Shown here: one piece after another, positions 10,781 through 24,308 of the stretch
Layout: each line of letters opens with the position of its first letter
Numbering within the stretch: position 1 is the stretch's first letter
Origin: a virus
IMG/VR virus record: IMGVR_UViG_3300045739_000013
Span: 1 to 24,461 of that record
DNA length: 24,461 nucleotides
Strand: one strand, 5' to 3'
Program-made: the position numbers and the translations under genes
Notes under the pieces: generated by a model
What the model was told of the DNA's origin: nothing
Databases searched by the model: none
The model's input: only the letters and a program-made list of their open reading frames with translations

Positions 10781-10797
10781 GGCACTCTTAGGCGCTC
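10781..10797 (-). promoter_or_regulatory. Recurrent leader element, copy upstream of the tail tube gene
   Basis: Transcript sense GAGCGCC-TAA-GAGTGCC, ending 26 nt before the tail tube ATG. The predicted fold is GCGC paired with GUGC, a bulged A, a C-G pair and a UAA loop. A -10-like TACAAT lies 11 nt upstream, without a convincing -35. Confidence 0.6.
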
Positions 10798-10816
10798 TAT
10801 CAGTTTCGATTGTAGC

Positions 10817-10975
10817 TCAGGTTGAGAGGCGTATCAGGTCAAGCTGTCCGCATCGGGGACATTTCACCGATATGCCTGCGTTACCTTTTCGTTCCCACTT
10901 GAACAGTAACTTCCCGCACTTGTAGCAACGGATGTCAGCCAGGATGTGAGTTATGGTCGTGGTAGCCGCGGTCAT
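10817..10975 (-). CDS. Com-like zinc ribbon protein
   Basis: This 52-residue ORF is recognisable by IRCYKCGKLLFKWERKGNAG and ISVKCPRCGQLDLIRL: two CxxC knuckles (Cys16/19 and Cys39/42) around a basic centre. The pattern is that of the Com family, the Mu zinc-binding translational activator of mom, which occurs widely in phages and prophages. The ATG overlaps the stop of the tail terminator gene as ATGA, indicating coupling, and the gene ends 62 nt before the tail tube start. No mom-like gene is in the window. By family it should bind RNA; the target is unknown. The recurrent leader hairpins in this operon are candidates. Confidence 0.85.
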   Translation of the reverse strand: MTAATTTITHILADIRCYKCGKLLFKWERKGNAGISVKCPRCGQLDLIRLST

Positions 10976-11397
10976 GACACCTCCTTCTGAACTAGGTAGT
11001 TACAAATGACCTGATGCCGCCCGTTGTCATCCCGGCCCATGTCGAATGGGGACTGCTGGGGGCTGATCGTGAGGTAGAAGGTGCCTCCGGTGGAGGTGGT
11101 GAGGGAAGTGTTGACGGGAGTGTAGAGGGTCTTGTAGATGGATTCAGCATTTGATCGGGCTACGGCGTAGGACGTGGACCGGGAAACGATCTGGAGACCG
11201 GGGGTTTCGACGACGGGCGGAATCGCCGCAAGGCTGAAGGTCGGGCCTATCCCCCCAGTCTCGTAGATCGTGACGGCTGTGTCCGGTGCTGTCTCGGGAA
11301 CCTGAGAGACGAACACGTTTCCTGCGGTGCTGCCGCCAAGGCGGAAAGCAGTTGATGAAGCAACGATGTAGTCCTGGACTTCGGCGGCTACGGTCAT
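10972..11397 (-). CDS. Tail terminator / tail completion protein
   Basis: The 141-residue protein begins with MTVAAEVQDYIVASSTAF, then VFVSQVPETAPDTAVTIYET, LQIVSRSTSYAVARSNAESI and a C-terminal TFYLTISPQQSPFDMGRDD. This order is typical of the phage minor-capsid/tail-terminator family (DUF3168-like or gpU-like) that caps the tail tube and joins it to the neck. It overlaps the upstream gp10-like gene and the downstream Com-like gene by ATGA on both sides. Gene order fits. Confidence 0.8.
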   Translation of the reverse strand: MTVAAEVQDYIVASSTAFRLGGSTAGNVFVSQVPETAPDTAVTIYETGGIGPTFSLAAIPPVVETPGLQIVSRSTSYAVARSNAESIYKTLYTPVNTSLTTSTGGTFYLTISPQQSPFDMGRDDNGRHQVICNYLVQKEVS

Positions 11398-11804
11398 GTG
11401 ATTAGCTCACGTTGGAACCGGTCCCGGAGCTTCTGGGCGAGCCGGTTCTCCATGCCGGTAACAGCCTCCCGGGCTGGTTGTTCAAGGAATTTGGCTTGCT
11501 GGCCGGGGGAATGCTTGAATTTGAGGTTCTCGTGTTGCTCGACGGCGTAATGGGCTGCTGCTCCACCGTATCCGACGACAACGAAGGCAGACCCGAAGTG
11601 GAAGTGGGGTCCCTGGACTTCAGCGGAGGCTCGGAGGATCCCCTGATCTACCGGGACGATCTCGACTGATGCCGCCCGTATCGCATGAGCTTCTTCAAGC
11701 ATCGCTCCGGCACCCTGTATCGGGGCAGCCTCCTGGAGTTTCTCCAACGCCGCCTGGAGTTCTTCTGCGCCGGAATGCTCAAAGGTGACGTTAAAACTGG
11801 TCAT
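11394..11804 (-). CDS. HK97 gp10-like neck / head-tail joining protein
   Basis: The 136-residue product has the family signature VPVDQGILRASAEV, then VVVGYGGAAAHYAVEQHENL, then a GQQAKFLEQPAREA segment near the C-terminus. The family takes part in joining head and tail. I chose the ATG at 11804 (MTSFNVTFEHSG); an in-frame ATG 8 codons earlier (11828) is possible. Neither has a clear ribosome binding site, so translation is probably coupled to the overlapping 63-residue ORF, whose stop lies 14 nt inside this gene. Confidence 0.85.
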   Translation of the reverse strand: MTSFNVTFEHSGAEELQAALEKLQEAAPIQGAGAMLEEAHAIRAASVEIVPVDQGILRASAEVQGPHFHFGSAFVVVGYGGAAAHYAVEQHENLKFKHSPGQQAKFLEQPAREAVTGMENRLAQKLRDRFQRELIT

Positions 11805-11982
11805 CGTCCGGGGTCCAGATGAAGTCACCGGCGTTTATGGTTGTCCAGTCCGCGGCGCTGTTCTGAAACTGCACCCATTCCTCATGCTTCTGCGCCGGGT
11901 GACCGTGGTAGCAGTCAACGACGTGATCCCACATGCAGGTGGCTTTAGAAACGAAGGACTTGATGATGGAGACCATCCTCAT
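11791..11982 (-). CDS. Small Trp/His-rich protein, unknown
   Basis: This 63-residue ORF fills the gap between the head-closure and gp10-like genes, overlapping the first by 38 nt and the second by 14 nt. The start at 11982 has a strong AGAGGAG site with a 7-nt spacer. It contains two Cys (CMWDHVVDC), several His and three Trp (HEEWVQFQ, DWTTINAGDFIW). No family is recognised. Without it the operon would hold an unusual 140-nt gap, which supports it being real. Confidence 0.6.
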   Translation of the reverse strand: MRMVSIIKSFVSKATCMWDHVVDCYHGHPAQKHEEWVQFQNSAADWTTINAGDFIWTPDDDQF

Positions 11983-12268
11983 CCGGGTACTCCTCTACTG
12001 ATATGAGTGGTGGTTGGCTGCCGTCGGGGAGAGTGACTTGAGCGGTGGCTTCGATAGCTGGACCGGTGGACGCCAACCAGACAGTGGTGTGGCTGACAAC
12101 TTCGTCGCCGATGAAATCCCGGACCAGCTTCGGTTTGCGGAGCACCCGGGCCTGGTAGGTGGTGGCCTGGGTACTGTAAACCTCTTCGCCGTACCGGTTC
12201 GTGCCGGACAGGTCGTTGATGATGACCGTGTGAGGCATGAGGTCCAGGTAAGCGTCGTCCCAGGCCAT
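11945..12268 (-). CDS. Head closure (head-tail stopper) protein
   Basis: The protein has 107 residues. The layout MAWDDAYLDLMPHTVIINDL ... NRYGEEVY ... TYQARVLRKPKLVRD ... VWLASTGPAIEATAQVTLPD is characteristic of the small beta-barrel head-closure family (SPP1 gp16 / HK97 gp7 type) that plugs the connector and receives the tail. It starts by TAATG overlap with the upstream Ig-like gene. Its neighbours downstream are the gp10-like and terminator proteins, as expected. Confidence 0.82.
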   Translation of the reverse strand: MAWDDAYLDLMPHTVIINDLSGTNRYGEEVYSTQATTYQARVLRKPKLVRDFIGDEVVSHTTVWLASTGPAIEATAQVTLPDGSQPPLISVEEYPDEDGLHHQVLRF

Positions 12269-12564
12269 TACGTGTCCACCTGAGTGTGACGGGCCACGAA
12301 CCAGCTCTCCCCGGCAGACTGGCCGACGCCCGTGGAGTGAGACCGGTAATTCCAGGTGCCGGGGAGGGTGACTTCTTGGTCGTAGTAGTAGACCCCAGTG
12401 GAAGGATGAACGACTGAGGTGGAAGCGGACGTGACTTCAATGGACGTGGAGCCGGGTGGGAGAACAGTGAACGTGACCAGGGTGGGGTCAACGAAAGACC
12501 CGTCAGTGGTCGTGAACGTGGCCTCCAACCGGGCTATTTGGCCTATGAAGTATGTAGAAGCCAT
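12268..12564 (-). CDS. Small Ig-like beta protein
   Basis: The 98-residue product reads as a single beta sandwich: ARLEATFTTTDGSFVDPTLV, then VTFTVLPPGS, TGVYYYDQEVTLPGTWNYRS, GESWFVAR. The motif 'TGVYYYDxEVTLPGTWNYR' resembles Ig-like modules that phages place in head, neck or baseplate accessory proteins. It sits between the decapeptide-repeat protein and head closure, sharing one base with each neighbour. Its function is unknown; a virion accessory subunit is likely. Confidence 0.7.
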   Translation of the reverse strand: MASTYFIGQIARLEATFTTTDGSFVDPTLVTFTVLPPGSTSIEVTSASTSVVHPSTGVYYYDQEVTLPGTWNYRSHSTGVGQSAGESWFVARHTQVDT

Positions 12565-12908
12565 TACAAAACCAGCTCGTCAGTTAACGCCATAGTAGTT
12601 GCCTCATAATCCCGTAGTGAGCATCGGGAGATAATCAGGTCCTGGAGGGTTACGTCAGTTACGACAGACTCCGTAAGCCAAGTGATAATCGTGGTAGTAA
12701 GGTCCTGCTGGGTAAGGGTGGTGACATCAGTGTCTTCGAGTGCGAGGTCCATGAGGAGATCGTCACTGAGGATCATGTCCACGAACTCGTAATCAGTGAG
12801 GGAGACGTAGCCTTTCGTGAACCCGAGGATCTTGAAGAAGCTCCCCAGCCCAAAGGTGACGGTGGGGCCACGCTCCATACCGAACGTGAGGAGACCCCCG
12901 GCGCTCAT
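12564..12908 (-). CDS. Decapeptide-repeat protein
   Basis: This 114-residue protein has a glycine/hydrophobic N-terminus (GGLLTFG, TVTFGLGSFF) and then tandem units of about ten residues with Leu at position 3 and Asp at position 5: VSLTD, MILSD, LALED, a degenerate LTQQD, then VTLQD, CSLRD, MALTD. Asp recurs at residues 39, 49, 59, 69 and again at 90, 100, 110, with an 11-residue shift between. Such short repeats usually build a beta solenoid. The gene overlaps its upstream neighbour by ATGA. Function is unknown; a virion accessory protein is likely from context. Confidence 0.72.
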   Translation of the reverse strand: MSAGGLLTFGMERGPTVTFGLGSFFKILGFTKGYVSLTDYEFVDMILSDDLLMDLALEDTDVTTLTQQDLTTTIITWLTESVVTDVTLQDLIISRCSLRDYEATTMALTDELVL

Positions 12909-13480
12909 GTGGAGGGCTGCCGTCCCTTGATGGACGCCACACCATCCCAGGGGACAGTGAGTTCATCATCGGAGTACAAGTCCCAGGTGGAGTCAACCGT
13001 GGTAGTGGTCCGGTCGGCGTAGAGGATCTCCTGGCCGGTTTCATCATCAGTGACACGGAGACCGTCCCGGTGGAAAAGGGCCAGCCATGCCAGGTCGGGG
13101 GCTTCGATGAGGGCAGCGGACACGGCCTGAGCGATAGTGACCTGAGTGAAAGCAGTCGGGTAAATGGGGTTGTTGCCGTAAGCGTTGACGGCCACCAAGT
13201 TGCCGCCGTACACGGTCACCGACTCAGTGTCGGGACCAGGGCGAGCCTCGAACGCCAGCCGCCAATCATTGATGAGCGTGACCGTAAGGGCACTGAGGAG
13301 ACCATTGCCGAGATCGTCCTTGCCCCCGCCCCGCACAATCTCCAGGTCATCGAGGAACCACAGGTTGGCTTCATACTCACGGCACTCGTCGTAAAGGTCT
13401 TGCACGTCCAGGTTCACGGTCGGGGCGGGGACAGTGATGACCTTGTTGACCTTGTCGAACAAGAAATCGAAGTGTGCCAT
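12905..13480 (-). CDS. Conserved-looking structural protein, unknown
   Basis: This 191-residue protein begins MAHFDFLFDKVNKVITVPAP, then VQDLYDECREYEANLWFLDD, and has a beta-rich second half (ESVTVYGGNLVAVNA, TWDLYSDDELTVPWDG). The N-terminal 'phage-side value, then LYDECREYE' layout occurs in accessory proteins of environmental phages, but I cannot name a family. The ATG follows directly on the TAG of the 55-residue ORF, and the end overlaps the next gene by ATGA. A virion accessory or assembly role is inferred from context only. Confidence 0.7.
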   Translation of the reverse strand: MAHFDFLFDKVNKVITVPAPTVNLDVQDLYDECREYEANLWFLDDLEIVRGGGKDDLGNGLLSALTVTLINDWRLAFEARPGPDTESVTVYGGNLVAVNAYGNNPIYPTAFTQVTIAQAVSAALIEAPDLAWLALFHRDGLRVTDDETGQEILYADRTTTTVDSTWDLYSDDELTVPWDGVASIKGRQPST

Positions 13481-13648
13481 CTAGCCTTCACGCTCCTGAG
13501 CGATGAGGCGGAGAAGATCATCCCGGCGTTCCTCTTCTTTGGCGATCTCCATGAACATGCTGGCGTCGTCCTTCGCCAAGGACCGGAACAGGCTGATGTT
13601 GTCCTCTACCTGTTCGAGGTTGCGCTCCAGGGCTTCAACGTCGTACAA
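13481..13648 (-). CDS. Small coiled-coil protein with TTG start
   Basis: The 55-residue frame fills the space between two genes: YDVEALERNLEQVEDNISL, then FRSLAKDD, MFMEIAKEEERRDDLLRLI, ending REG. No ATG exists upstream in frame; the best start is TTG at 13648, in a purine-rich context and 14 nt inside the previous gene. The charge pattern and Leu spacing predict one long helix. It resembles the gene just upstream (EAL-x3-L ... NI-x-L, then acidic/basic helix), so the pair may be an old duplication. Function unknown. Confidence 0.65.
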   Translation of the reverse strand: MYDVEALERNLEQVEDNISLFRSLAKDDASMFMEIAKEEERRDDLLRLIAQEREG

Positions 13649-13829
13649 CTCCGTCCCCCGTCTCCTTCTTCACTTCCAACACTGCCGCCATCTGCTGGAA
13701 GCGGCCCTTCTGCTGCCGCTCGTCGTTGATGGCTTTCTCCAGGAGAGCAATGTTGTTGTCGATCTTTTCGATCCCGGCGTACAGGGAGTCGAGGTCGTAC
13801 TGAAGTGCTTCGAGAGTAATGTCGGCCAT
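13635..13829 (-). CDS. Small coiled-coil protein
   Basis: This 64-residue protein (MADITLEALQYDLDSLYAGI, EKIDNNIALLEKAINDERQQ) is a predicted continuous amphipathic helix with heptad-like Leu/Ile spacing and a basic C-terminus. It starts by TAATG overlap with the upstream basic protein and ends 14 nt inside the next small coiled-coil gene, which it resembles. No family is recognised. Such small helical proteins could be assembly factors or bundle subunits of the neighbouring appendage proteins. Confidence 0.7.
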   Translation of the reverse strand: MADITLEALQYDLDSLYAGIEKIDNNIALLEKAINDERQQKGRFQQMAAVLEVKKETGDGVVRR

Positions 13830-14023
13830 TACTTCGTAGCGTCGGCTTCGGGTTCGTTCTCGATGAGACCGTCAGCGACGAGCTTCTCTCGCTTCTTCAG
13901 GGCGTTCTTCAGTTTGCGTTCCGTGTCGGCCCGGGCCACGACAACCCACCGGCTGCCACGCTTCTCCCGGGCAATGTGGAGGATCTTGTCACCTCGGAGG
14001 GAACGGCTGAACCTGTACGACAT
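13829..14023 (-). CDS. Small basic protein, unknown
   Basis: The 64-residue product is basic in its first two thirds (MSYRFSRSLRGDKILHIARE, KRGSRWVVVARADTERKLKN, ALKKREKL) and acidic at the end. A short beta hairpin (DKILHIAREKRGSRWVVVA) followed by a helix is likely. The ATG has an AGGAG site 4 nt upstream, just after the 823-residue gene. It shares a base with the next coiled-coil gene. No family is recognised. Confidence 0.7.
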   Translation of the reverse strand: MSYRFSRSLRGDKILHIAREKRGSRWVVVARADTERKLKNALKKREKLVADGLIENEPEADATK

Positions 14024-14032
14024 GTCTCTCCT

Positions 14033-16504
14033 TTACGACTTGATGCTGTCCAGGCTACGAATGGCAGCGTTGGAAAGTCCACCAGAGCCGAGCGTAACGT
14101 CGGCTGTATAGGGGATCATGGGAATGGTCGCTGACGTTGACCCGGTGGAAGCGTTGCGTACAACAATCCGGGTGTCAATGTCGGTGCTGTTGTACGTGAG
14201 GACCGCTGACTCCGAACCGGGTGTCCCGTCTGTTCCCGTTGCCTCATACCGGTACAGGAGCGGCACGTACACGTTGTCGGTGGACACGGCTGCCACGGGG
14301 AGAGCGTTGATGGTGTAATCGTTACCCGCCGACTGGGCGGACACGAACGGGAAGATCGTGGCCTTGCTGCTGGACGGGATACTCACAATGTAGCTGTACT
14401 CGCCCTGAGTGGAGAAGTACACGATGTCACCGACCTTGGCGACGGTTTGGAGGTTCAGGCCCGCCGTGGACCCGAGCGCACTTGACGACGCTGAAGCGGT
14501 CAGGTTCCCCGTGGACGAGGCCAGTGTGAACGTGGCCGCAGTCCACGACGAGTAGCGCATGATGTACTCAGCGTCAGCGGAGTTGTCCACGACGACGACA
14601 GTGCCGCCCGTGGACTTGCCGGGCGTGTCCACTCGGATAGCGGATGATGCCACGATGCTGGTAGCCCCCGACGACATCGCCGTCCCCGAGTATTCGGTTT
14701 TTTCGATGGTGCCACTGGCGAGGCGGTACACGGCAACCCGGTCGGTGGACCGGAGGTTGGTAACGGCCAGGGTGACCTTGTTCGGCGGGTTGACGACAGT
14801 GGGGGCACCACCGTCAGTGCCGTCGTTGACGAGCTGAAAGTTGGTGGCGTCAGCGGCGGGGACGTTCGTGAGGACCACACCAGGGGCGCAGAAGAACACG
14901 CCACCGAGGAACGTTCCGAACGGGGCCGAAGCGATGGGGGTGATGGCTGTGGCCGTCCCCGTAGTCATCGTCACATAGTTGGAGCCATCGACTTCCACGT
15001 TGTTGGTGGTGTCGAACGTGCCCCGGCTGTTACGGAGGATGATGATGTCGTCGGTGAGGTTGTGGCTGACGACAGTGCCGGTCGCCCCCGACGTGAGCTG
15101 AGTGACCACAGCCCCCTCAGCGATAGAGCCGGTGAGGGCGTTGTAGTTGAGGCGGTAGTCAGAGCCACGGTAGAAGTGCCCGGCCAGGCCGTCAGTTTCC
15201 GTAGTGTCCGTCTCACCCCGCTGGGTGACGAACTGGGCGTACTGGTACACCTGACTGAGGGGCCGGGAGTTACAGTCGATGACGATGCTGTAATTCTCGG
15301 TGGTGTCGTCCTCGTCAATGTCGAAGGTTTCGTTGGAACCGTGAGTGATGTTGATGTCCGTGTACGTGGCAGCGTTCACGTCGGAAGGGGCAACGGCTGT
15401 GGCCGTGGTCGTGGAGTCCGCTCCCGTGAACCCACCCGTACCAGCCCCGAAGTCGGTGAGTGGATCACCGATCAGGTAATACTGGAGAGTGATGTCCGGG
15501 GCAGTACCAGAGTTGGATGTGACGATGCCCTGAATGGTGGGATCAGAGTCGTCCTCGATGACCTCACCAACAGTGAAATCACCTGACGCCGTTGTGAGGA
15601 TCATCTGGCGGGTACCGGGCGTGTTTGACAGGTCGTCACCGGTTTGGAGAGGGATAGGGTTACGACCACCAGAGGACAGGTCAGTCTCGAAGTACGAGTA
15701 CGACTTGGTCGCCTGACGGGCAAACACGACGATGACACCTTCGTCAATTTCAGTGTCCTCGGATTTGACTTTGACAGTGATGTCAATGTGCCCGTCACTC
15801 CACCAGTCGGAGGCTCCGGCAGTGAGCCGATCATCGGACTCGATGAGGAGGCTGCCGTTCTGTTCGATGTAAAGGTGAGTGTTGTCTTCGATGGTGCCGA
15901 GGGAGAACACGTTGGCCCAGAGAGCCTCACCTGTGGTTGAGGCAGCGTCCATGGTGAGGCCGGTGCCGGTTCCGCCACCCGTGGTCATCTCAAAAGTGGG
16001 GGTGCCGTCCCAGTCGTGAGTGGCAGTGTTGTTGGTGGGGCGCACCCAGGCGGTGCCGTTGGAGCCATCCGACGTGAACCAGAGGAGAGTGCCCGTGTCA
16101 CCGTTCGATGAGGTGGCGGTGAGGCCAACGTCCCCGTTGACGAGGTCGGTGCCACCACCAACGGTGTAGTCGAAGCGGACGATGCCCGTGTTCGAGGACG
16201 TGGTTCGTTTCCACAGGGACGTTTGGATAGCGCCACCAGTGAGGAACTCGACGCTGTGGTCGTCAATGAACCAGGGGTCCCTGTCACCAGTGTCGATGAT
16301 TCCGATGGTGTACTCAGTGGGGGTTTGGGCACTCATCGGGGTGCCGTCATCGAGCTGAGTTAGCTCGTCGAAGAGGTCCTGAAGAGCCGAGTACAGCTCA
16401 TTGACCGTGTACGTGTTGCCGGAACCGGAGTAAACGATGCGCTTCTGTCGGTTTTCGCTGCCGTAGTAAACGGTGAAGTCACCGCTGAGGACCGTGCTTG
16501 ACAT
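14033..16504 (-). CDS. Large repetitive beta-rich virion protein, probable appendage
   Basis: This 823-residue protein is rich in Thr, Ser, Asp and Gly and almost free of Cys. It opens with SGDFTVYYGSENRQKRIVYS and NELYSALQDLFDELTQLDDG, then FIDDHSVEFLTGGAIQTS. Three loosely repeated beta modules occur near residues 118-172, 307-370 and 457-521, each with a 'G-x-V ... sG-x-tG-x-[VIL]' core followed by strands and a TATA-like end. The C-terminal third is more beta structure (TDRVAVYRLASGTIEKTEYS). No enzyme motif is visible. It lies between head and neck genes and has its own leader (70 nt) with a recurrent element copy and a GGGAG site. A head fibre, collar or whisker protein is the likely role. 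Confidence 0.75.
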   Translation of the reverse strand: MSSTVLSGDFTVYYGSENRQKRIVYSGSGNTYTVNELYSALQDLFDELTQLDDGTPMSAQTPTEYTIGIIDTGDRDPWFIDDHSVEFLTGGAIQTSLWKRTTSSNTGIVRFDYTVGGGTDLVNGDVGLTATSSNGDTGTLLWFTSDGSNGTAWVRPTNNTATHDWDGTPTFEMTTGGGTGTGLTMDAASTTGEALWANVFSLGTIEDNTHLYIEQNGSLLIESDDRLTAGASDWWSDGHIDITVKVKSEDTEIDEGVIVVFARQATKSYSYFETDLSSGGRNPIPLQTGDDLSNTPGTRQMILTTASGDFTVGEVIEDDSDPTIQGIVTSNSGTAPDITLQYYLIGDPLTDFGAGTGGFTGADSTTTATAVAPSDVNAATYTDINITHGSNETFDIDEDDTTENYSIVIDCNSRPLSQVYQYAQFVTQRGETDTTETDGLAGHFYRGSDYRLNYNALTGSIAEGAVVTQLTSGATGTVVSHNLTDDIIILRNSRGTFDTTNNVEVDGSNYVTMTTGTATAITPIASAPFGTFLGGVFFCAPGVVLTNVPAADATNFQLVNDGTDGGAPTVVNPPNKVTLAVTNLRSTDRVAVYRLASGTIEKTEYSGTAMSSGATSIVASSAIRVDTPGKSTGGTVVVVDNSADAEYIMRYSSWTAATFTLASSTGNLTASASSSALGSTAGLNLQTVAKVGDIVYFSTQGEYSYIVSIPSSSKATIFPFVSAQSAGNDYTINALPVAAVSTDNVYVPLLYRYEATGTDGTPGSESAVLTYNSTDIDTRIVVRNASTGSTSATIPMIPYTADVTLGSGGLSNAAIRSLDSIKS

Positions 16505-16511
16505 ACCAACT

Positions 16512-16524
16512 CCCTATATCAGGG
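16512..16524 (-). promoter_or_regulatory. Small hairpin touching the ribosome binding site of the 823-residue gene
   Basis: Transcript sense CCCT-GATAT-AGGG forms a 4-bp stem whose 3' arm is the start of the AGGGAG ribosome binding site. It lies between the recurrent leader element and the ATG. Short, so weak evidence on its own. Confidence 0.3.
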
Positions 16525-16535
16525 GACAAACTATG

Positions 16536-16552
16536 GACACTCCGCGGCGTTC
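16536..16552 (-). promoter_or_regulatory. Recurrent leader element, copy upstream of the 823-residue gene
   Basis: Transcript sense GAACGCC-GCG-GAGTGTC, ending 31 nt before the ATG. The outer pair of the 4-bp stem is A-U here, where three other copies have G-C. A -10-like TATAGT lies 8 nt upstream, with no clear -35. Confidence 0.58.
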
Positions 16553-16574
16553 TGAGTCTGACTATACCACGGGG

Positions 16575-18335
16575 CTATCCGGCTATTGAGTCCTCGATGA
16601 GGATGATGTTCTGGGTCATCCCGACGCTGGTGATCTGGTTGGTGGCGACAGTTTGCAAGTACCGGGGATCATCAGCGGATGATGACTTGCGGACAATGAT
16701 GCGAACGTCAGTGTCAGAGGTGTAATTGTACGAGTCGGTGTAAACGCCGGATGCGTTGGTGGAACCGTTACTGATGAGGGTGCCGTCGAGTTCTTCGATG
16801 CGGACCCTGGCAAGGTTGATGGGGTTACTGGACTCGTCGTCCACGTTGACGGTGAGCGTGACGGACTGTTGGATGACGACGGTGGCCCCATCAGTGCGGT
16901 AGGTGAGGTTCCCGGGGGCGGTGCCGTTCCCGGCGATGTTGATGGTGACAGTGCTTGTGGTGCGCTTGATGTGGAACGTGGAGTCGTTGGCGTTGTCGGT
17001 GGTGGTGTTGAACCCCGTGAACGTGCAGTCACGGAGGGTCATGGTGAGGGGACTGGAGGTGCCGAACTCAATGGCGTGAGTAAGAGCGGTACCCATGGTG
17101 ACGTTGAGTTCGTCCAATTCCCCATCGGGGTCGGTGGCTTCGTTGAACAGAATGGCGGATGTGTTGGCGGTACCCTCATAGCCAGAGAGGGTCATGCCCG
17201 TGTAGTCCCCGGCCCCACAGATGAAGGCCCGTGACGTGTTGGCCGGGTTCTGGATCGTCATGCGGAGCATGTCATGGTCGCCACCCGTGATGGTGCCGCA
17301 GTTATCGAAGATGTGATCGTTGACGTGGTGGCCGGTGGCGTCGGCCTGAGAGGAGAAGACGATGGCCCGGTCGCCCCAGTCACGGAACGTACAGCCGTCC
17401 ATTTCCATGAGGTTGACGTTGCCGCCGTTGCTGTCCCAGGAGACGTGCGGGCCAGCGGACGTGATGGTGCAGCCGGTGAGCTTGAAATGGTTGGTACCGG
17501 TCGAGTTCCCGATGATGTTGATGTAATACTTGTCGTTGCCGATGTTGCGATCCTCGAAGATGACCACGGCGTTGGAGTCCTCGAAATACGTGGTGGTAGT
17601 GCCGTCGTTGTCACCGAAACTCATCGGTCCCTGACACCCGAAGGCGGTGGGTGGTGAGTAGGCGCGGAAGATGCCGTGGGCTGCGTCGGCGCTTCGTGAC
17701 CGATCAGCGGTGGCGAGTTCGGTGAACGTTCCCCGTGCCCCAGTGGTGCCGCCCTGCACGTCGATCCCGTCGTTGCCGAACCTGATGATGTCCACGGCGA
17801 CGTTGTAACCACCACCGAGAGCTTTGGAGTTGGTGTCGAAGCTGGCCCCGAACTGGGTGATGGCAGCGAAGTTGAGTGCAGCGTAGCTTCCAGCCACAAC
17901 GTAGGTGTTCCCCGCCGAGTTCATGGTGCCCGCCTGGCCGGTGTCGAGGACAAGGCATTGCCATGAGTTGACGTCCAGGCCGCTGGGTCCCTCCAGGTGG
18001 TTGAATACTCGCCGGTCAGCACCGGCCATGTCGAAGCCGATGCGGTCGGTGCCGTCACCCAGCAGGAGAGCGTTGGGTGGTGGGCTGGCATCCCAGGCGT
18101 CTTGCAAAGCGTTGTTGAACGTCCAGATGTAAACGAGGGTGCCGGGGGAGGTGCCGAGGTTCCGTGACGTAGCGTCGGTGTAGTAGATCTGGCCCGAGGT
18201 GGTGGCAAGCGACTCGGCAACCGCCAGGGTGTCCTCAGCCGACACTGTGGTCGTACCGTACCCCGCCCCGGTCCAGTTGGTGGTGGCCTGGGCATCGTTG
18301 ATCGTCGTCCGATTGTCCTTAATGCTTACTGCCAC
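16575..18335 (-). CDS. Beta-helix protein with C-terminal Ig-like domain, probable appendage
   Basis: The protein has 586 residues and a GTG start that overlaps the SPOUT-like gene by 10 nt. Residues 1-165 form a beta-rich head (TLVYIWTFNNALQDAWDASP, SWQCLVLDTG). From about 170 to 470, irregular short turns with Gly/Asn/Asp (FEDRNIGNDKYYINIIGN, FKLTGCTITSAG, LMEMDGCTFRDWG, LTMTLRDCTFTGF) look like a right-handed parallel beta helix. The last 100 residues resemble an Ig or carboxypeptidase-regulatory-like fold (TVNVDDESSNPINLARVRIE, GSTNASGVYTDSY). These are features of fibre or spike proteins. No depolymerase catalytic residues could be assigned. The position before the 823-residue protein suggests a joint appendage. 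Confidence 0.75.
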   Translation of the reverse strand: MAVSIKDNRTTINDAQATTNWTGAGYGTTTVSAEDTLAVAESLATTSGQIYYTDATSRNLGTSPGTLVYIWTFNNALQDAWDASPPPNALLLGDGTDRIGFDMAGADRRVFNHLEGPSGLDVNSWQCLVLDTGQAGTMNSAGNTYVVAGSYAALNFAAITQFGASFDTNSKALGGGYNVAVDIIRFGNDGIDVQGGTTGARGTFTELATADRSRSADAAHGIFRAYSPPTAFGCQGPMSFGDNDGTTTTYFEDSNAVVIFEDRNIGNDKYYINIIGNSTGTNHFKLTGCTITSAGPHVSWDSNGGNVNLMEMDGCTFRDWGDRAIVFSSQADATGHHVNDHIFDNCGTITGGDHDMLRMTIQNPANTSRAFICGAGDYTGMTLSGYEGTANTSAILFNEATDPDGELDELNVTMGTALTHAIEFGTSSPLTMTLRDCTFTGFNTTTDNANDSTFHIKRTTSTVTINIAGNGTAPGNLTYRTDGATVVIQQSVTLTVNVDDESSNPINLARVRIEELDGTLISNGSTNASGVYTDSYNYTSDTDVRIIVRKSSSADDPRYLQTVATNQITSVGMTQNIILIEDSIAG

Positions 18336-18787: not shown

Positions 18788-18844
18788 TTAGAAGTCCCGG
18801 AGTGTGACTCTGGTGGGTGGGTAGTCTCGGACGCTAACGGTCAT
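18788..18844 (-). CDS. Possible 18-residue leader peptide
   Basis: The tiny ORF MTVSVRDYPPTRVTLRDF starts inside the end of the connector gene (overlap 11 nt) and stops with a TAA directly followed by the ATG of the SPOUT-like gene, in the same frame. It may couple translation of the two genes, since the SPOUT-like gene has no good ribosome binding site. It could also be chance; no strong site precedes its ATG. Confidence 0.3.
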   Translation of the reverse strand: MTVSVRDYPPTRVTLRDF

Positions 18845-19325: not shown

Positions 19326-19380
19326 TCAGGCCGTCCACCAGCCCGGCTGCGTAACCCAGTTCGGCTTCAGTCCATGCCAT
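19297..19380 (-). CDS. Possible 27-residue small protein
   Basis: The ORF MAWTEAELGYAAGLVDGLNA plus seven residues starts with a near-perfect ribosome binding site (GAGGAGG, 7 nt spacer) and overlaps the TGA of the upstream gene (TGATG). Without it, 54 nt before the connector gene would be empty. The sequence is short and helix-like, and it overlaps the connector start by 29 nt. It may be a coupling peptide or a remnant gene. Confidence 0.45.
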   Translation of the reverse strand: MAWTEAELGYAAGLVDGLNARGVGGQN

Positions 19381-20117
19381 CAGGTTGCCTCCTCCTCTTC
19401 TACTGGGCTGTCCTGAGTCCAGGTTTGCAGGACGTAATTCATGTTCTCCTGCTGGCCGATGAGCTGATTGAGGACGCCTTGGCCTTGGTTGATCTGCTGT
19501 TCGACTTGGCGGCGTTGCTCTTGAACTTTCCTCATCCGGGCTTGAAGGCGCTTGATATGGCCCCGGGTGTCTTCGAGACCGTACAGGTGAGTGGTTTTGA
19601 GGAGGTCGCTGTCGTCGGGGATGTGGATGTTCAGCCCGGCACCCTTCGCCCACCCGAGGAAGAATTCACAGGAGGGGCGCTGCTCCCGGTATTCGGAGGA
19701 CTGCGCCATGTCCACGCCGTACACGCCGATGTCGGTGTAGTCCTGGTAGATGGCGAGGGCAATCATCCATGAGATCGAGTTCGTGAAGTAGTCGGTGTCG
19801 AAGTATTTGAGGATCTCGTCTTTGGGGTAGTCCACCACCATCGGGATCCGGCCCCGGTACTTCTCGGCGTGCTCCGGGAACATGTAGATGGGGATTTCCC
19901 GGGACGCTAACCAGCCGAGGTGTTCGTCGTCCTTACCGTGGTGGGTGTCAAGATCATGAAGCTGAAACCAGGCGTCCCAGGGTTTCTCCTGGGCGATCTT
20001 ATGAAGAGAGTTGAGACCCCAATGGTGAACATGGGGGTTATCCCAGGGTGTCCGAACCCATGAGTCGGCAAAGCCGACGATGGCAACTTCGCGCTTAGGG
20101 GTGTGCTGATCGTCCAT
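19380..20117 (-). CDS. Rossmann-like protein with coiled-coil C-terminus, possibly MptE/DUF115- or glycosyltransferase-like
   Basis: This 245-residue protein starts with a nucleotide-fold-like strand and turn (EVAIVGFADSWVRTPWDNPH), then WDAWFQLHDLDTHHG, IPIYMFPEHAEKYRG, YFTNSISWMIALAIYQDYTD, IGVYGVDMAQSSEYREQRPS, CEFFLGWAKGAGLNIHIPDD and SDLLKTTHLYG. The alternation of strands and helices with a central 'YGVDM' resembles DUF115/MptE-like or sialyltransferase-like Rossmann proteins found in many environmental phages. About residues 185-225 form a Gln/Arg-rich coiled coil, and the end is acidic. An enzyme for glycan or nucleotide chemistry is possible, but no catalytic set is proven. Its place inside the head operon is unusual. 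Confidence 0.65.
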   Translation of the reverse strand: MDDQHTPKREVAIVGFADSWVRTPWDNPHVHHWGLNSLHKIAQEKPWDAWFQLHDLDTHHGKDDEHLGWLASREIPIYMFPEHAEKYRGRIPMVVDYPKDEILKYFDTDYFTNSISWMIALAIYQDYTDIGVYGVDMAQSSEYREQRPSCEFFLGWAKGAGLNIHIPDDSDLLKTTHLYGLEDTRGHIKRLQARMRKVQEQRRQVEQQINQGQGVLNQLIGQQENMNYVLQTWTQDSPVEEEEAT

Positions 20118-20135
20118 CGACGTTCAGCATAGCCG

Positions 20136-20423
20136 CTACTCGGGGTGCGCTTTGGAAATGTGCTGAGCCAGACGCTTATAGGGACCCTTACCGCATTGTG
20201 GGCAAAGAGCGTCCTCGTCGCCTGACTCTGCTACGGGTGGTTCACCGAACGCAACCGCCGTTTCCGTCTCGGTCACAGCGGGCCGCATACGGAAATGGCC
20301 GACTCGTATCAGTGACGCCAACCTGCCGGGGTCGATGCTGGTGACGACCTCCTGGGGGATGAGTTCCCCCGGGGCGTATTCGACCCCAGACAGGTTCATG
20401 CGCCGACGTGCTTCATACTGCAT
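20136..20423 (-). CDS. Small protein with C2H2 zinc finger
   Basis: The 95-residue protein has an N-terminal domain (MNLSGVEYAPGELIPQEVV, then SLIRVGHFRM) of the kind seen in small head genes of many phages, an acidic linker, and a C-terminal C-x2-C-x10-H-x4-H finger (CPQCGKGPYKRLAQHISKAH). The finger should bind zinc and perhaps nucleic acid or a partner protein. It follows the small head protein after a compact hairpin and has no clear ribosome binding site. Role in the head is inferred from position. Confidence 0.7.
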   Translation of the reverse strand: MQYEARRRMNLSGVEYAPGELIPQEVVTSIDPGRLASLIRVGHFRMRPAVTETETAVAFGEPPVAESGDEDALCPQCGKGPYKRLAQHISKAHPE

Positions 20424-20428
20424 ATCGG

Positions 20429-20443
20429 AAGGCTACCAGCCTT
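20429..20443 (-). promoter_or_regulatory. Compact 6-bp hairpin between two head genes
   Basis: AAGGCT-GGT-AGCCTT is a perfect inverted repeat with a 3-nt loop. It touches the stop codon of the upstream gene and ends 5 nt before the zinc-finger gene. No U-run follows, so it is unlikely to be an intrinsic terminator. It could stabilise the upstream mRNA or limit ribosome access to the next gene. Confidence 0.35.
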
Positions 20444-20831
20444 ACGGCGCAGTCAGTGTCAGTCCGTCAGTGGTTCCGGTCACCGTCACCGCCCACACCG
20501 TCGAGCTGATGCCGTAGAAGGTCGCAACCTCACCGGCAGCATCCAGAGATACCGCAGTGTTGGTGCTTCCCGCAAACGGAACAGCAGTCGAATTGGTGTA
20601 GACGAGAACAGCAGCGGTGGAAGCCGTGGCCCCACCAGCGGCGTACACGACCTCCTGCTTCATCCCGGCTTGGGGGGCTGGGAGAGTCAGGATCGTGCCC
20701 GTGCTGGTAGAGGTCACGACAGTCACACCGAACCCGGAGAGGGTGCTTGCCCCCGTGGAGGCGGTCGTAACCACCGCCAACGAGGGGGCACTCTCAGCGG
20801 TCTTCAGGCGTTGCTTCTGAATAGCTGCCAT
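20442..20831 (-). CDS. Small Ala/Ser/Thr-rich head protein
   Basis: The product has 129 residues from the ATG at 20831, preceded by TAGGAG with a 7-nt spacer; longer in-frame starts overlap the capsid gene and lack such a site. After a basic N-terminus (MAAIQKQRLKTAESAPSLAV) it is nearly all small and beta-forming residues (GTILTLPAPQAGMKQEVVYA, TVWAVTVTGTTDGLTL). Small beta proteins right after the capsid gene are often decoration or head-fibre subunits. No exact family recognised. Confidence 0.75.
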   Translation of the reverse strand: MAAIQKQRLKTAESAPSLAVVTTASTGASTLSGFGVTVVTSTSTGTILTLPAPQAGMKQEVVYAAGGATASTAAVLVYTNSTAVPFAGSTNTAVSLDAAGEVATFYGISSTVWAVTVTGTTDGLTLTAP

Positions 20832-20841
20832 TGGATGACTC

Positions 20842-21804
20842 CTAGCTGACCGCAGCGTTGAAGAAGTAGCCCAGCTCGGACGAAATGACCTTCTGCGCGA
20901 AGGCCGACTCGGCCTCGATGCGATCTGAAGCATTCCGTTCCAGGCGGAACCGCTTGATGCGGATACCGTCGCTACCCTGCCCGATGAGACCCGTCCAATT
21001 GAACGTGTATCCGGCAGCCGGAGTGTTGAGTCCCGGTGACGAAGGCGTGTAGCACATCAGAGCGTTCTTCCCGAAGTTGAAGCTGTACGAAGCAGTTTCA
21101 CCTTCAGCAGCCGTGTTCCTCACTGACCAGGCGACGAGCACCCGGTCCACTCCGATCATGGAAGCCAACTGGGCCTCCGACCACAAGGCCGGGGTTCCGG
21201 TGGTGGCTCCACCGCTGACCCTGGCGAGAAAGTCCGGGTGATCCTGGAGCTTGTTCCACACCTCGGGTCCGAGGACCAGGGTGTTGGGCTTCAGGGCCGT
21301 CGTTTCTGCCATGGTCATAACAGCGGTACGCATGTCGGAGATCGGGTCACCGTTGACGTAGTCGTCCCACTTGTTGGTGGGCGTCAGGTCGGTTCCCCAG
21401 ACTCCGGTCGTGAAGAAGTTCGACACCCAGTCCTGCTCGTACTTCTGAAGCAGGTGGGTGGTGACGAACTGGGTGGCATCGCTATCGAGCGCGATCTGAC
21501 TGTCGGCGTTGGCACGGGTCTGATCGTCTATGTCCTTGTGGATGGCGTAGACGTCAGTCGTGAAGTTGCCAGTCGTCAGCTCGTAGCCCGACCCGGCGCT
21601 CTCAGCTCCCGGCCCACGGAGTTCAGCCTCCGTCTTGAACCAGTAGCTCCGGTCGTAGATCCAGTACTTGTCGCTCTTGTTAGCGACGTTGACCGGAGGG
21701 AAGACCGAGCGCGCGACGAACTTGTCTGCGGACTGCGAGAACCGCACACTCATGTTGGTGAGCGCTACATCGAGATGTAGGTCCGACATTGTCGGTTGGG
21801 GCAT
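20842..21804 (-). CDS. Major capsid protein
   Basis: This 320-residue protein lies between decoration and connector genes. It opens with SDLHLDVALTNMSVRFSQSA, then FVARSVFPPVNVANKSDKYW, YELTTGNFTTDVYAIHKDID, NTLVLGPEVWNKLQDHPDFL, LASMIGVDRVLVAWSVRNTA and a C-terminal GIRIKRFRLERNASDRIEAE. This is the layout of HK97-fold coat proteins in environmental siphoviruses: an N-arm without a long delta domain, a spine helix with DxDATQFVTTHL, and a late P-loop-like strand. A scaffold is supplied separately. The 56-nt leader carries a copy of the recurrent element, and the sequence just before the ATG can pair with that element. Confidence 0.92.
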   Translation of the reverse strand: MPQPTMSDLHLDVALTNMSVRFSQSADKFVARSVFPPVNVANKSDKYWIYDRSYWFKTEAELRGPGAESAGSGYELTTGNFTTDVYAIHKDIDDQTRANADSQIALDSDATQFVTTHLLQKYEQDWVSNFFTTGVWGTDLTPTNKWDDYVNGDPISDMRTAVMTMAETTALKPNTLVLGPEVWNKLQDHPDFLARVSGGATTGTPALWSEAQLASMIGVDRVLVAWSVRNTAAEGETASYSFNFGKNALMCYTPSSPGLNTPAAGYTFNWTGLIGQGSDGIRIKRFRLERNASDRIEAESAFAQKVISSELGYFFNAAVS

Positions 21805-21805
21805 T

Positions 21806-21842
21806 CGCCTCTATGTCCTTTCTGCAAAGACGCTCAGAGGCG
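21806..21842 (-). promoter_or_regulatory. 7-bp pairing that can mask the capsid gene start
   Basis: CGCCTCT (21842 to 21836 on the transcript) is perfectly complementary to AGAGGCG (21812 to 21806), which ends one base before the capsid ATG. The 5' arm lies inside the recurrent leader element, so the two folds exclude each other. The 23-nt loop contains an AAAGGA that could also serve as ribosome binding site. Confidence 0.5.
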
Positions 21843-21845
21843 TTC
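21829..21845 (-). promoter_or_regulatory. Recurrent leader element, copy upstream of the capsid gene
   Basis: Transcript sense GAACGCC-TCT-GAGCGTC, ending 24 nt before the capsid ATG. The stem is ACGC/GCGU with all Watson-Crick pairs, then a bulged A and a C-G pair. A-U replaces the G-C pair of other copies. Confidence 0.6.
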
Positions 21846-21860
21846 GTGCTCGGTTTCCTA

Positions 21861-22250
21861 TTACGTGGTGCCGATGGCGGCGAGTTGTACGGACAGGATC
21901 CGACCGGTTGACCCGGACGATCCCCTGACCACACGACCACGACTGAGGAAGTCGGTCGAAGGGGCGGCAGCCATACCGTTGGTGCTGGCACCAACCGGGT
22001 CTCCCGTCGCAATCGTGCTTCCAGCGGCCTGAACTTTGGTGATGCCATTTATCATCACGGTTCCGGCCTCACCGTCGTAAGTGGGTTTGTTCTGGAGGAC
22101 ACCAATGACGTGGCCCTCCGTGGTCGGTGCAATCAGCTCGCCATTGGCGTCCAACTGCACGAACCTGTACTGCCAGTTCACCGAGGTGGTGGACAGGACA
22201 GCAGTGCTGGCCGGATGTGTGACCATCTGGCCGGGAAATTCAACAGCCAT
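21861..22250 (-). CDS. Head decoration protein, DUF2190-like
   Basis: The protein has 129 residues of beta structure: MVTHPASTAVLSTTSVNWQY, RFVQLDANGELIAPTTEGHV, IGVLQNKPTYDGEAGTVMIN, GITKVQAAGSTIATGDPVGA. The 'xGHVIGVLQNKP ... AGTVMINGITKV' core is typical of DUF2190-like or lambda gpD-like head-stabilising proteins encoded just before the capsid gene. The ATG follows TAGGAG, where the TAG is the scaffold stop, 7 nt spacer. It likely binds the outside of the expanded capsid. Confidence 0.8.
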   Translation of the reverse strand: MAVEFPGQMVTHPASTAVLSTTSVNWQYRFVQLDANGELIAPTTEGHVIGVLQNKPTYDGEAGTVMINGITKVQAAGSTIATGDPVGASTNGMAAAPSTDFLSRGRVVRGSSGSTGRILSVQLAAIGTT

Positions 22251-22260
22251 TGAACCCCTC

Positions 22261-22869
22261 CTAGGCGTTTCTCAGAGCGGACTTGCGTTCATTCTGGTAC
22301 TGGTCGTACAGGTCTGGGCGCTTCTCCCAAATGGTGGCCTCAGCCTCTTCCAGCGATTTGCTGGGATCGGCTTCGACCATGCGCTTGGCGAGCACCGTTA
22401 CCTCTTCCTGAGCGTTGGTAGGCCCAACACCGTTTGCTCCGACTTCTCCCAGGAGAGCTGACTTCTCGACTCGGGCTGACGCTGTGGCGAGCGCACCCTC
22501 GACGGCAGAAGCCAGTTCGGGGTTGAAGTCGTTGAGCTGCCGGAGAAGCGGCCCGAACTCGTTGGCGTCCTCGATCACCGCGTCGTAGGTGGCCGCCTTA
22601 GCGATGAACGCGGCGTCGGCGGCGGCTTCACGCTGTGCTTCGAGCGCAGCTTCAGCTTTCTCCAACCGCTCACGGTCAGCTTTCACAATGGCGGCTACTT
22701 CGACGGGGAGTTCGCTGAGCGCCTTCGAGACGAGCATCTCTTCGGCTTCTTCAACGGGACGAAGCTGTTCGAGTTCTGTTTCCAGTTCCTCGACGTAAGC
22801 GAGCACCTCTTCCACCTGTTCGGGGGAGAGGATGTCGTCCGGCTGATCTGCCTGAGTGTCGTCTGGCAT
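22261..22869 (-). CDS. Nested scaffold protein from an internal start
   Basis: The ATG at codon 356 of the long gene (MPDDTQADQPDDILSPEQVE) is preceded by a perfect AAGGAG with a 6-nt spacer. It would give a 202-residue acidic, coiled-coil protein covering exactly the scaffold-like part. A copy of the recurrent leader element ends 24 nt before this ATG, the same geometry as at the capsid, tail tube and other starts. The arrangement parallels lambda, where scaffold Nu3 is made from inside protease gene C. Expression is inferred, not shown. Confidence 0.68.
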   Translation of the reverse strand: MPDDTQADQPDDILSPEQVEEVLAYVEELETELEQLRPVEEAEEMLVSKALSELPVEVAAIVKADRERLEKAEAALEAQREAAADAAFIAKAATYDAVIEDANEFGPLLRQLNDFNPELASAVEGALATASARVEKSALLGEVGANGVGPTNAQEEVTVLAKRMVEADPSKSLEEAEATIWEKRPDLYDQYQNERKSALRNA

Positions 22870-23043
22870 ATCAGACTCCTTGTCTGGTAGTCCGGCGCTC
22901 TCGGCACTCAGCGTATCGTCGAACTTCTCGACGACTTCTTTGGGGAGAATACCACGGAGATCAGCCCCAGTGGCAGTATCCACGAACACATCGGCTTCCA
23001 CAAGTCCTTTAGCAAGGATGTCGAAAGCCTCGTTACTGTCCAT
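22261..23043 (-). CDS. Possible second nested start in the scaffold gene
   Basis: The ATG at codon 298 (MDSNEAFDILAKGLVEADVF) has AGAAAGGA with a 7-nt spacer and begins just after the basic linker, at a natural domain boundary. It would give a 260-residue product. No leader element copy lies upstream, so it is less supported than the start at 22869. Confidence 0.4.
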   Translation of the reverse strand: MDSNEAFDILAKGLVEADVFVDTATGADLRGILPKEVVEKFDDTLSAESAGLPDKESDMPDDTQADQPDDILSPEQVEEVLAYVEELETELEQLRPVEEAEEMLVSKALSELPVEVAAIVKADRERLEKAEAALEAQREAAADAAFIAKAATYDAVIEDANEFGPLLRQLNDFNPELASAVEGALATASARVEKSALLGEVGANGVGPTNAQEEVTVLAKRMVEADPSKSLEEAEATIWEKRPDLYDQYQNERKSALRNA

Positions 23044-23934
23044 AGTCGCATCCTTTCTAAGGGACGAAGGAGAAACGGGCTTACCCTCCACGATAGGTTT
23101 CTTGCCCTGAGACATTCTGGTCTTGTTACGTTTCTTGGCAGCGGCGAGGGCTTTGAGGGCTTTACGGCGACCGGGAGTGGACTTCGTCATGTACTTGGGA
23201 ATCAGGCCAGGGTCGTAGCCAGGGGCCTTGTCCCCACGACTTCGTCGCTTGCGCCCGGCGATTTCTCGCTCGATGGCTTCGACCACGTCTGACTCTAATT
23301 TGGACCGGTCGGCGCGGCGCAAAACATCATCGGATTGTTCCCCCACTATCCCAGCAAGTGCCTCGGCGCGGTTAGGTGATCCCTTGCGAGGTAAATTGAA
23401 GCGAACCCATAGAGGTTTTTCTGACCCACCCTCCACGCGGGAACCCGGGTACATGTCTTCGTCGATGAACCCCTCAGCGGCGAGGTTCCGTTTCGGCATT
23501 CCGGTGCTGCCACGAGCGAAGTTCCCTGCTGTGCCGATACCGACCCGGGACTGTCGCGCACGGGCGGCTTCGAGGACGGCTTTGGCGTTGGGGTCTTCCC
23601 GGACGGTGAGGTCCCGTTTCGGCTTCCTTGGCCGGGAACCCGGGTACATGTCCTTAACAGGGAACCCTTCGGCGGCAAGGTTGCGTTTCTGTTTGCCACG
23701 GGATCCTCGGGCGAAGTTGCCGGTGACACCGATACCGCGGTTACCGGAGCCACCGTGGACATCTTGGCTGGAGCCGGACTTGTGGGGACCGGGGCCACCG
23801 TGTTTGGAGATGGACCCGTCAGCCTTGAAGTATTCGATGTAGGCGTGCTGGTTGGCACCCTTGTCTACAAGATCCACTCGGTCCGTGGAGACATTTCGGA
23901 GTCGGTAACGCTTCCGTCTTTCTTCCGTAGTCAT
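22261..23934 (-). CDS. Protease-linker / scaffold fusion protein
   Basis: This is a 557-residue protein. Residues 10-40 (RLRNVSTDRVDLVDKGANQH, then YIEYFKAD) carry the 'VDLVDKGAN' signature usual at the N-terminus of XkdF-type prohead proteins, followed by GGPGPHKSGSSQDVHGG. Two 35-residue repeats lie at 67-101 and 132-166. Residues 170-290 are basic. The C-terminal ~200 residues are acidic and helical (SPEQVEEVLAYVEELETELE, ADRERLEKAEAALEAQREAA) with a C-terminal helix and basic end (NERKSALRNA), like phage scaffolds that enter and leave the procapsid. The ATG overlaps the upstream gene as ATGA. Two internal in-frame ATGs have good ribosome binding sites. It is unclear whether the long form or the nested product is the main scaffold. 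Confidence 0.75.
   Translation of the reverse strand: MTTEERRKRYRLRNVSTDRVDLVDKGANQHAYIEYFKADGSISKHGGPGPHKSGSSQDVHGGSGNRGIGVTGNFARGSRGKQKRNLAAEGFPVKDMYPGSRPRKPKRDLTVREDPNAKAVLEAARARQSRVGIGTAGNFARGSTGMPKRNLAAEGFIDEDMYPGSRVEGGSEKPLWVRFNLPRKGSPNRAEALAGIVGEQSDDVLRRADRSKLESDVVEAIEREIAGRKRRSRGDKAPGYDPGLIPKYMTKSTPGRRKALKALAAAKKRNKTRMSQGKKPIVEGKPVSPSSLRKDATMDSNEAFDILAKGLVEADVFVDTATGADLRGILPKEVVEKFDDTLSAESAGLPDKESDMPDDTQADQPDDILSPEQVEEVLAYVEELETELEQLRPVEEAEEMLVSKALSELPVEVAAIVKADRERLEKAEAALEAQREAAADAAFIAKAATYDAVIEDANEFGPLLRQLNDFNPELASAVEGALATASARVEKSALLGEVGANGVGPTNAQEEVTVLAKRMVEADPSKSLEEAEATIWEKRPDLYDQYQNERKSALRNA
22872..22886 (-). promoter_or_regulatory. Hairpin presenting the nested scaffold ribosome binding site
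   Basis: Transcript sense CAGAC-AAGGA-GTCTG is a perfect 5-bp stem with the Shine-Dalgarno in the loop and its last G in the 3' arm. It lies between the in-gene element copy and the internal ATG at 22869. Confidence 0.4.
22894..22909 (-). promoter_or_regulatory. Recurrent leader element, copy inside the scaffold gene
   Basis: Transcript sense GAGTGCC-GA-GAGCGCC, ending 24 nt before the internal scaffold ATG at 22869. It is translated in the long gene (S-A-E-S-A), yet keeps the same hairpin: GUGC with GCGC (one U-G wobble), bulged A, C-G. The first half has T where the other copies have C. Confidence 0.58.
23437..23541 (-). repeat. Second copy of a 35-residue internal repeat
   Basis: It encodes GIGTAGNFARGSTGMPKRNL, then AAEGFIDEDMYPGSR. 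About 25 of 35 residues match the copy at 23632-23736. The last ~20 bases are nearly identical while earlier codons differ synonymously, so selection on protein sequence is likely. Confidence 0.85.
23632..23736 (-). repeat. First copy of a 35-residue internal repeat
   Basis: It encodes GIGVTGNFARGSRGKQKRNL, then AAEGFPVKDMYPGSR. The start of a third unit (GSRPRKPKRDL) follows directly. The spacing between full copies is 65 residues. Confidence 0.85.
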
Positions 23935-24272
23935 GCTTCGGCCTTCGCCTTGTGGAAGGTCGTGTACGCCTCGTGATACCTGGCACGGGCATCGTTTAGC
24001 TGAGCAAGTGCTTGGTCTTCCGCGGAGACGCGGTGCGCGATTGTGTTAAGACCCGACGCCCGTGCCAGGTTCCGGTTGGCAGCGTCCACTTCTTCACGGG
24101 CAGCGCCCATGGCTTTGCGGAGTTGGTAGAGCTTCTGGTAAGCAGCGTCTTCGGGGGACGGCTTCGGGGCGGCTGGCTTCTTCGCTGCGGGCTTCTTGGC
24201 AGCCGGTTTCTTAGCCGCTGGTTTCTTCGGGGTCGAGGTGGTTTTCCTGGTAGAGGATTTCTTCTCGGCCAT
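23931..24272 (-). CDS. Small histone H1-like basic protein
   Basis: This 113-residue protein has an N-terminal tail with four tandem KKPAA units (residues 16-35) after a Ser/Thr/Lys stretch, resembling histone H1 and bacterial HU-tail repeats. Then comes a helical domain (YQKLYQLRKAMGAAREEVDA, LAQLNDARARYHEAYTTFHK). It lies between the protease and the scaffold genes. It could bind DNA in the head, or act as a scaffold cofactor; the tail alone does not decide. Its ribosome binding site (AAAGAGG, 6-nt spacer) lies in a 7-bp hairpin, and the leader also has a recurrent element copy. Confidence 0.75.
   Translation of the reverse strand: MAEKKSSTRKTTSTPKKPAAKKPAAKKPAAKKPAAPKPSPEDAAYQKLYQLRKAMGAAREEVDAANRNLARASGLNTIAHRVSAEDQALAQLNDARARYHEAYTTFHKAKAEA
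24168..24227 (-). repeat. Four 15-bp tandem repeats encoding KKPAA
   Basis: Residues 16-35 of the small basic protein are four KKPAA units in a row. Codons vary between units, so the array is maintained at protein level rather than being a fresh slippage product. Confidence 0.85.
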
Positions 24273-24275
24273 TAT

Positions 24276-24297
24276 GTGCCTCTTTCGTTGGAGGCAC
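24276..24297 (-). promoter_or_regulatory. 7-bp hairpin masking a ribosome binding site
   Basis: GTGCCTC and GAGGCAC are perfect inverted repeats with an 8-nt loop, 3 nt before the ATG of the H1-like gene. The 3' arm includes the GAGG ribosome binding site. The 5' arm overlaps the second half of the recurrent element at 24293-24308, so the two folds compete. Confidence 0.6.
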
Positions 24298-24308
24298 TCC
24301 TGGCGCTC
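24293..24308 (-). promoter_or_regulatory. Recurrent leader element, copy upstream of the H1-like gene
   Basis: Transcript sense GAGCGCC-AG-GAGTGCC, ending 20 nt before the ATG. The stem is GCGC/GUGC, then a bulged A and C-G with a 2-nt loop. A weak -10-like CATAGT lies 8 nt upstream. Confidence 0.6.

Follow-up and report, generated by a model that had tools for sequence, protein, structure and literature searches.

Com-type operator hairpins upstream of virion genes in a phage suggest a multi-gene RNA switch

Com operators of phage Mu and the hairpins of the window

Com is the translational activator of the phage Mu mom gene. Systematic evolution of ligands by exponential enrichment (SELEX) with Mu-like Com gave the consensus NGAGNNCC(N)2-3GAGNNCCNN, a hairpin with a 3–4 nt stem; Com shields its GA dinucleotides, and was proposed to bind the hairpin beside a structure that hides the mom start and to melt that structure (PMC6483171). 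Mom is the single gene for which this activity has been known so far. In Pseudomonas, passages in two papers link com to genes for lectin-like bacteriocins and for levansucrase/glycosyl hydrolase (PMC6240691, PMC3899960), and one of these, a review, states in its passage on Com that the general role of the protein is still to be explored (PMC6240691). Here we describe a 24,461-nt stretch of viral DNA (IMG/VR record IMGVR_UViG_3300045739_000013, positions 1 to 24,461; hereafter the window) in which five copies of a hairpin, named Com boxes 1 to 5, match this operator and precede gene starts, with a com gene nearby (Table 1).

The initial annotation had reported these five copies on the transcript strand, their gaps to the start codon, and an exchange of A-U for G-C at the outer stem pair together with G-U wobbles, and we confirmed each of these, all copies lying on the minus strand. 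The pattern used there has five matches in the window, whereas 400 dinucleotide shuffles gave 0.02 on average and at most 1. With a less strict pattern of the SELEX type that requires a paired stem, exactly the same five copies were returned (0.29 expected, largest 4). Three of the five match GAGNNCC-N2-3-GAGNNCC letter for letter, and the other two carry GAA in the first half and TC in the second, like the Mu mom site GAATGCC-TGC-GAGCATC. When a covariance model of the element (R1), built without any Mu sequence, was run over the whole 36.7-kb Mu genome, its sole match at E ≤0.05 was the proven mom Com site at 35875–35891, with a modest 17.2 bits. R1 also matched about 35 nt 5' of a DNA methyltransferase gene in phiARM81ld and PhAER-5 and of a mom-like gene in PAN70; no Rfam family matched above its gathering score. 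Because it matches both the Com SELEX motif and the Mu mom site, we conclude with high confidence that the element is a Com operator, and hence a known operator rather than the novel one that had been supposed. The 4-bp stem of the annotated fold stands, whereas the inner C-G pair is lost in the copies with a 2-nt loop, which form a 5-nt loop instead; where the halves are 3 nt apart, the folded loop has 6 nt. The bare hairpin is weak, the predicted energies of the five copies lying around −2 to −4 kcal/mol.

The gap before the tail-tube gene had been described as intergenic. The box is indeed there, but the gap also holds an unnoticed 52-codon com gene about 20 nt 5' of box 5, and a com frame stands directly before the tail-tube box in seven relatives. 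From its sequence, the product is a candidate for the trans-acting factor: C17, C20, C39 and C42 are invariant across 13 aligned sequences, Mu Com among them. A tblastn search of GenBank phages with the window Com gave no match, and no close solved structure of Com was found. Among 55 phage records, Com was present in 21/26 box-positive and 4/29 box-negative ones (p = 5.8e-7, a value overstated by the phylogenetic non-independence of the records); here several Firmicutes-type Com proteins below the Pfam cut-off were accepted on their four-cysteine pattern and alignment. Two of the four box-negative Com carriers (G016 and G028) have fully paired variant boxes (GAGTGTC-GA-GAACACC; GAACGTC-N3-GAACGTC) before scaffold-like, terminase and tape-measure genes.

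The arrangement resembles Mu com/mom in its bipartite GAGNNCC hairpin with a C-G loop pair before an occluded start, in a Com-family protein encoded directly upstream and in the fold switching proposed for both. It differs in that Mu has one box and one target, for DNA modification, whereas here a record holds up to six boxes before virion and packaging genes; across phages the targets are genes for the major head protein, scaffold, tail tube, tape measure and terminase. A Mom homolog was sought in the window (partial) and in 11 other box-positive records, and none was found. The Pseudomonas loci likewise have a PF10122 gene directly 5' of a gene other than mom, but with one gene per com, and boxes are not described in the passages concerned (PMC6240691, PMC3899960).

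Competing folds over starts and terminators

The element is complementary to its own downstream start region. Pairing energy was −13.66 kcal/mol, compared with −11.60 kcal/mol when start regions were swapped (z = −9.2; −9.3 in a nonredundant set), whilst the controls were flat (own upstream flank, z = +0.8; reversed element, z = −0.7). A version based on helix scores had the same outcome, also within gene families, and forcing the short hairpin had a median cost of 7.7 kcal/mol. The first half of box 3 with its loop could form 8 bp with the Shine-Dalgarno (SD) region of the capsid gene, and the second half of box 5 could form 7 bp with codons 1–3 of the tail-tube gene. Copies 5' of terminase genes overlap an intrinsic terminator (−16 to −29 kcal/mol, with a T run after it), to which their second half contributes the 5' arm; in one of them (L319) both the hairpin and the terminator pairings survive a double transversion. 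Protein-bound short hairpins that exclude a terminator are also known from the ribonucleic antiterminator (RAT)/LicT and ANTAR systems, which differ in their proteins and RNA motifs, act on bacterial metabolic operons and have no translational copies.

We consider it very likely that the Com boxes are operators for a phage-encoded, Com-type zinc-ribbon RNA-binding protein that switches on late genes through an exchange of folds. As long as the mRNA is unbound, a half of the box, in many cases together with the loop, would pair with the SD or start region of the same gene; in the terminase copies it would pair with the 3' arm of the terminator. The gene would then be silent or weakly expressed. 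Once accumulated, Com would bind and stabilise the alternative short hairpin of the two GAGNNCC halves (a 4-bp stem with exposed GA dinucleotides), breaking the inhibitory fold and allowing translation, or transcription past the terminator. Head, scaffold, tail and packaging genes would in this way be switched in concert. Judged by Mu and by the anatomy of the boxes, switching on virion and packaging genes by fold exchange is the best-supported mechanism; we infer that this Com binds the boxes, that binding activates, and the timing of the switch.

Several points weigh against this proposal. Boxes 1 and 2 reach just 5 bp of start-region pairing, and box 4, where it was also looked for, has none. 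In one clade of rumen phages the hairpin is weakened by a mismatch (A.A, A.G or A.C) at an inner pair; SELEX tolerates any base at this position (PMC6483171). Com-like zinc ribbons are short, and several of the Firmicutes type score below the Pfam cut-off. In five box-positive records no Com was detected; these comprise three fragments of ≤20 kb, the 33-kb G022, and G050, whose box is probably a chance hit. A stop mutation in com left lscB expression unchanged in Pseudomonas syringae (PMC3899960), so the presence of com is no proof that it controls the next gene.

Com might also bind the boxes and yet repress or time the structural genes, for example by blocking ribosome access until assembly. 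The end of the box lies 0–16 nt 5' of the SD in most copies, where a bound protein could hinder the ribosome. We regard repression as unlikely, given that Mu Com activates (PMC6483171), that the alternative fold hides the start and that a Com-bound hairpin would exclude the terminator before terminase, both of which would make the bound state the active one. Somewhat less probable again is a host factor reading the boxes, or an action through translational coupling to the preceding gene or RNA stability that needs no protein, with com incidental. Such a reading would fit the abutment of many boxes on the upstream stop codon, and an all-against-all protein comparison of box-positive with box-negative phages in which no family was found in every box-positive genome tested and the Com family appeared only as a small split cluster. 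It sits poorly with the invariant GA and C positions, with halves that are the Com SELEX motif, with the co-occurrence of Com and boxes, and with a bare hairpin of, at best, about −4 kcal/mol.

Stem covariation and distribution among phages

Substitutions in the stem support an RNA hairpin. For 61 distinct elements, 97.4% of stem cells were paired, compared with 91.7% in shuffles (0/500); including variants of Com-bearing phages brought the set to 70 elements, with values of 97.7% and 89.0% and 28 cells changed on both sides against 5.4 in shuffles. These shuffles ignore relatedness, and the independent compensatory cases carry most weight. Each of the four inner stem pairs had compensatory changes: pair 1 with A-U in place of G-C (capsid copies, box 4 of the window and the tape-measure copy of L241), pair 2 with U-A (L242), pair 3 with A-U (L004, L233 and L077) and pair 4 with U-A (L077 and L272). 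The changes include the double transversion GAGCGAC...GATCGCC in L094, L319 and G020, which keeps the pairing and destroys the repeat. Because of this covariation, a length between the halves that varies from 2 to 5 nt and a strictly sense orientation before starts, the RNA-regulatory reading of the initial annotation is upheld over the DNA-binding one it had left open; a processing element, which it had also suggested, finds no support. It is scarcely credible that the boxes are promoters, or direct repeats in DNA to which a transcription factor binds: the halves of most copies do form a direct repeat with a 9–10 bp period, but the double transversions break it while pairing survives, the spacing is variable, stem cells show G-U and no A-C outside one clade, every copy lies on the sense strand before a start, and no promoter excess was found in the region.

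Relatives with 55–81% identity in the head or tail-tube protein (L003, L004, L005, L077–L083, L093, L094) keep the element before the same starts, namely those of the H1-like, internal scaffold, capsid and tail-tube genes. The internal position of box 2 is shared with L003, L004, L005 and L077, and L077 has further copies before a decoration-like gene and near the tail assembly chaperone. The element is absent in capsid relatives at ≤47% identity. A DNA search of GenBank phages found no relatives of the window, and a genome scan for the host returned distant capsids only. Scanning IMG/VR with a DNA pattern showed that phages whose head and tail proteins differ also carry the element upstream of starts; L165, for example, has copies 5' of genes for a head protein (phrog_422), a tail protein (phrog_158) and the tape measure. 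In two homolog sets fetched by protein alone (1.04 Mb), all 38 distinct matches lay on the sense strand. These sequences suggest that unrelated phages probably use the Com switch for control of virion genes.

Other features of these phages were noted alongside. In L077 (position 5178) and L093 (position 134) the major capsid gene apparently starts with ATT rather than ATG at the aligned position, a start that the common start codons miss. Lineages without a Com box before the major tail gene (L255, L256, L257, L261, L265, L270, L275 and L282) have a different, seemingly covarying hairpin there, directly 5' of an AGAAAGG SD sequence (e.g. ACCCC...GGGGT, ACCTGTA...TACAGGT). At L129(-):8975-9020, L197(-):3223-3250 and L107:357-413 each start is preceded by at least three GAGCGCC-like units rather than two; these may be Com targets or chance repeats.

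Short repeats before many phage starts, kept at orthologous genes, have been described as start-associated sequences (SAS) and extended SAS (ESAS) in cluster K mycobacteriophages (PMC3203893). Those precede non-structural genes only, and consist of 13 bp plus 17-bp inverted repeats whose hairpin is unsupported by substitutions. Identity with SAS/ESAS was rejected, as the motif GGGATAGGAGCCC differs and the targets here are structural genes. Cluster O repeats were also compared and do not fit.

Genes downstream of the boxes and the wider role of Com

The features of the window are collected in Table 1. The scaffold-like start inside the 557-codon open reading frame recalls the nested protease/scaffold genes of phage lambda. 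The tail-tube gene and its neighbor at 9694-10332(-) both match major tail protein families; in the former the match is confined to the C-terminal half, and it looks like a duplicated, extended tail-tube gene. Box 4 lies in an inserted module (12905-18335(-)) of 823-, 586- and 191-codon genes, relatives of which occur on other contigs, including ones of 389 kb and 153 kb. Since relatives of the 823- and 586-codon genes (L072–L076, one on the 389-kb contig) are without the element, acquisition of box 4 probably accompanied or followed insertion of the module.

Table 1. Positions in the window of the Com boxes, com and the genes that follow the boxes.
Feature	Position	Strand	Description	Score or match
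Com box 1	24293..24308	-	GAGCGCC-AG-GAGTGCC, 20 nt 5' of H1-like gene start	21.0 bits
Com box 2	22894..22909	-	GAGTGCC-GA-GAGCGCC, 24 nt 5' of internal (scaffold) start in 557-codon open reading frame	21.5 bits
Com box 3	21829..21845	-	GAACGCC-TCT-GAGCGTC, 24 nt 5' of major capsid gene	25.0 bits
Com box 4	16536..16552	-	GAACGCC-GCG-GAGTGTC, 31 nt 5' of 823-codon gene	19.4 bits
Com box 5	10781..10797	-	GAGCGCC-TAA-GAGTGCC, 26 nt 5' of tail-tube gene	23.7 bits
com	10817..10975	-	52-aa four-cysteine zinc-ribbon protein	PF10122 (Zn_ribbon_Com), 29.7 bits (cut-off 22.9)
H1-like gene	23931..24272	-	Lys/Ala-rich protein, 113 aa; box 1 target
557-codon open reading frame	22261..23934	-	internal start (202 aa, scaffold-like) is box 2 target
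Major head protein gene	20842..21804	-	box 3 target	phrog_1005, E 1.8e-80
823-aa protein gene	14033..16504	-	unknown function, in inserted module; box 4 target
Tail tube protein gene	10332..10754	-	box 5 target	PF06199, phrog_1407

As far as our searches went, with most subscription journals outside them, a multi-copy Com regulon over virion genes and an apparent antitermination form before terminase are new. For Com itself, these results predict a set of several target genes in phages that are not related to Mu, supply a model with which its sites can be found, and indicate what appears to be a use in both translation and termination. With some reserve, we lean towards Com being a general late-gene master switch of tailed phages, a single small zinc-ribbon protein acting on RNA as antiterminator for terminase and as translational activator for head, scaffold, tail-tube and tape-measure genes, with Mu mom as one narrow case within a regulon that is widespread among phages. 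If so, an RNA switch would determine when many uncultured phages produce their virions.

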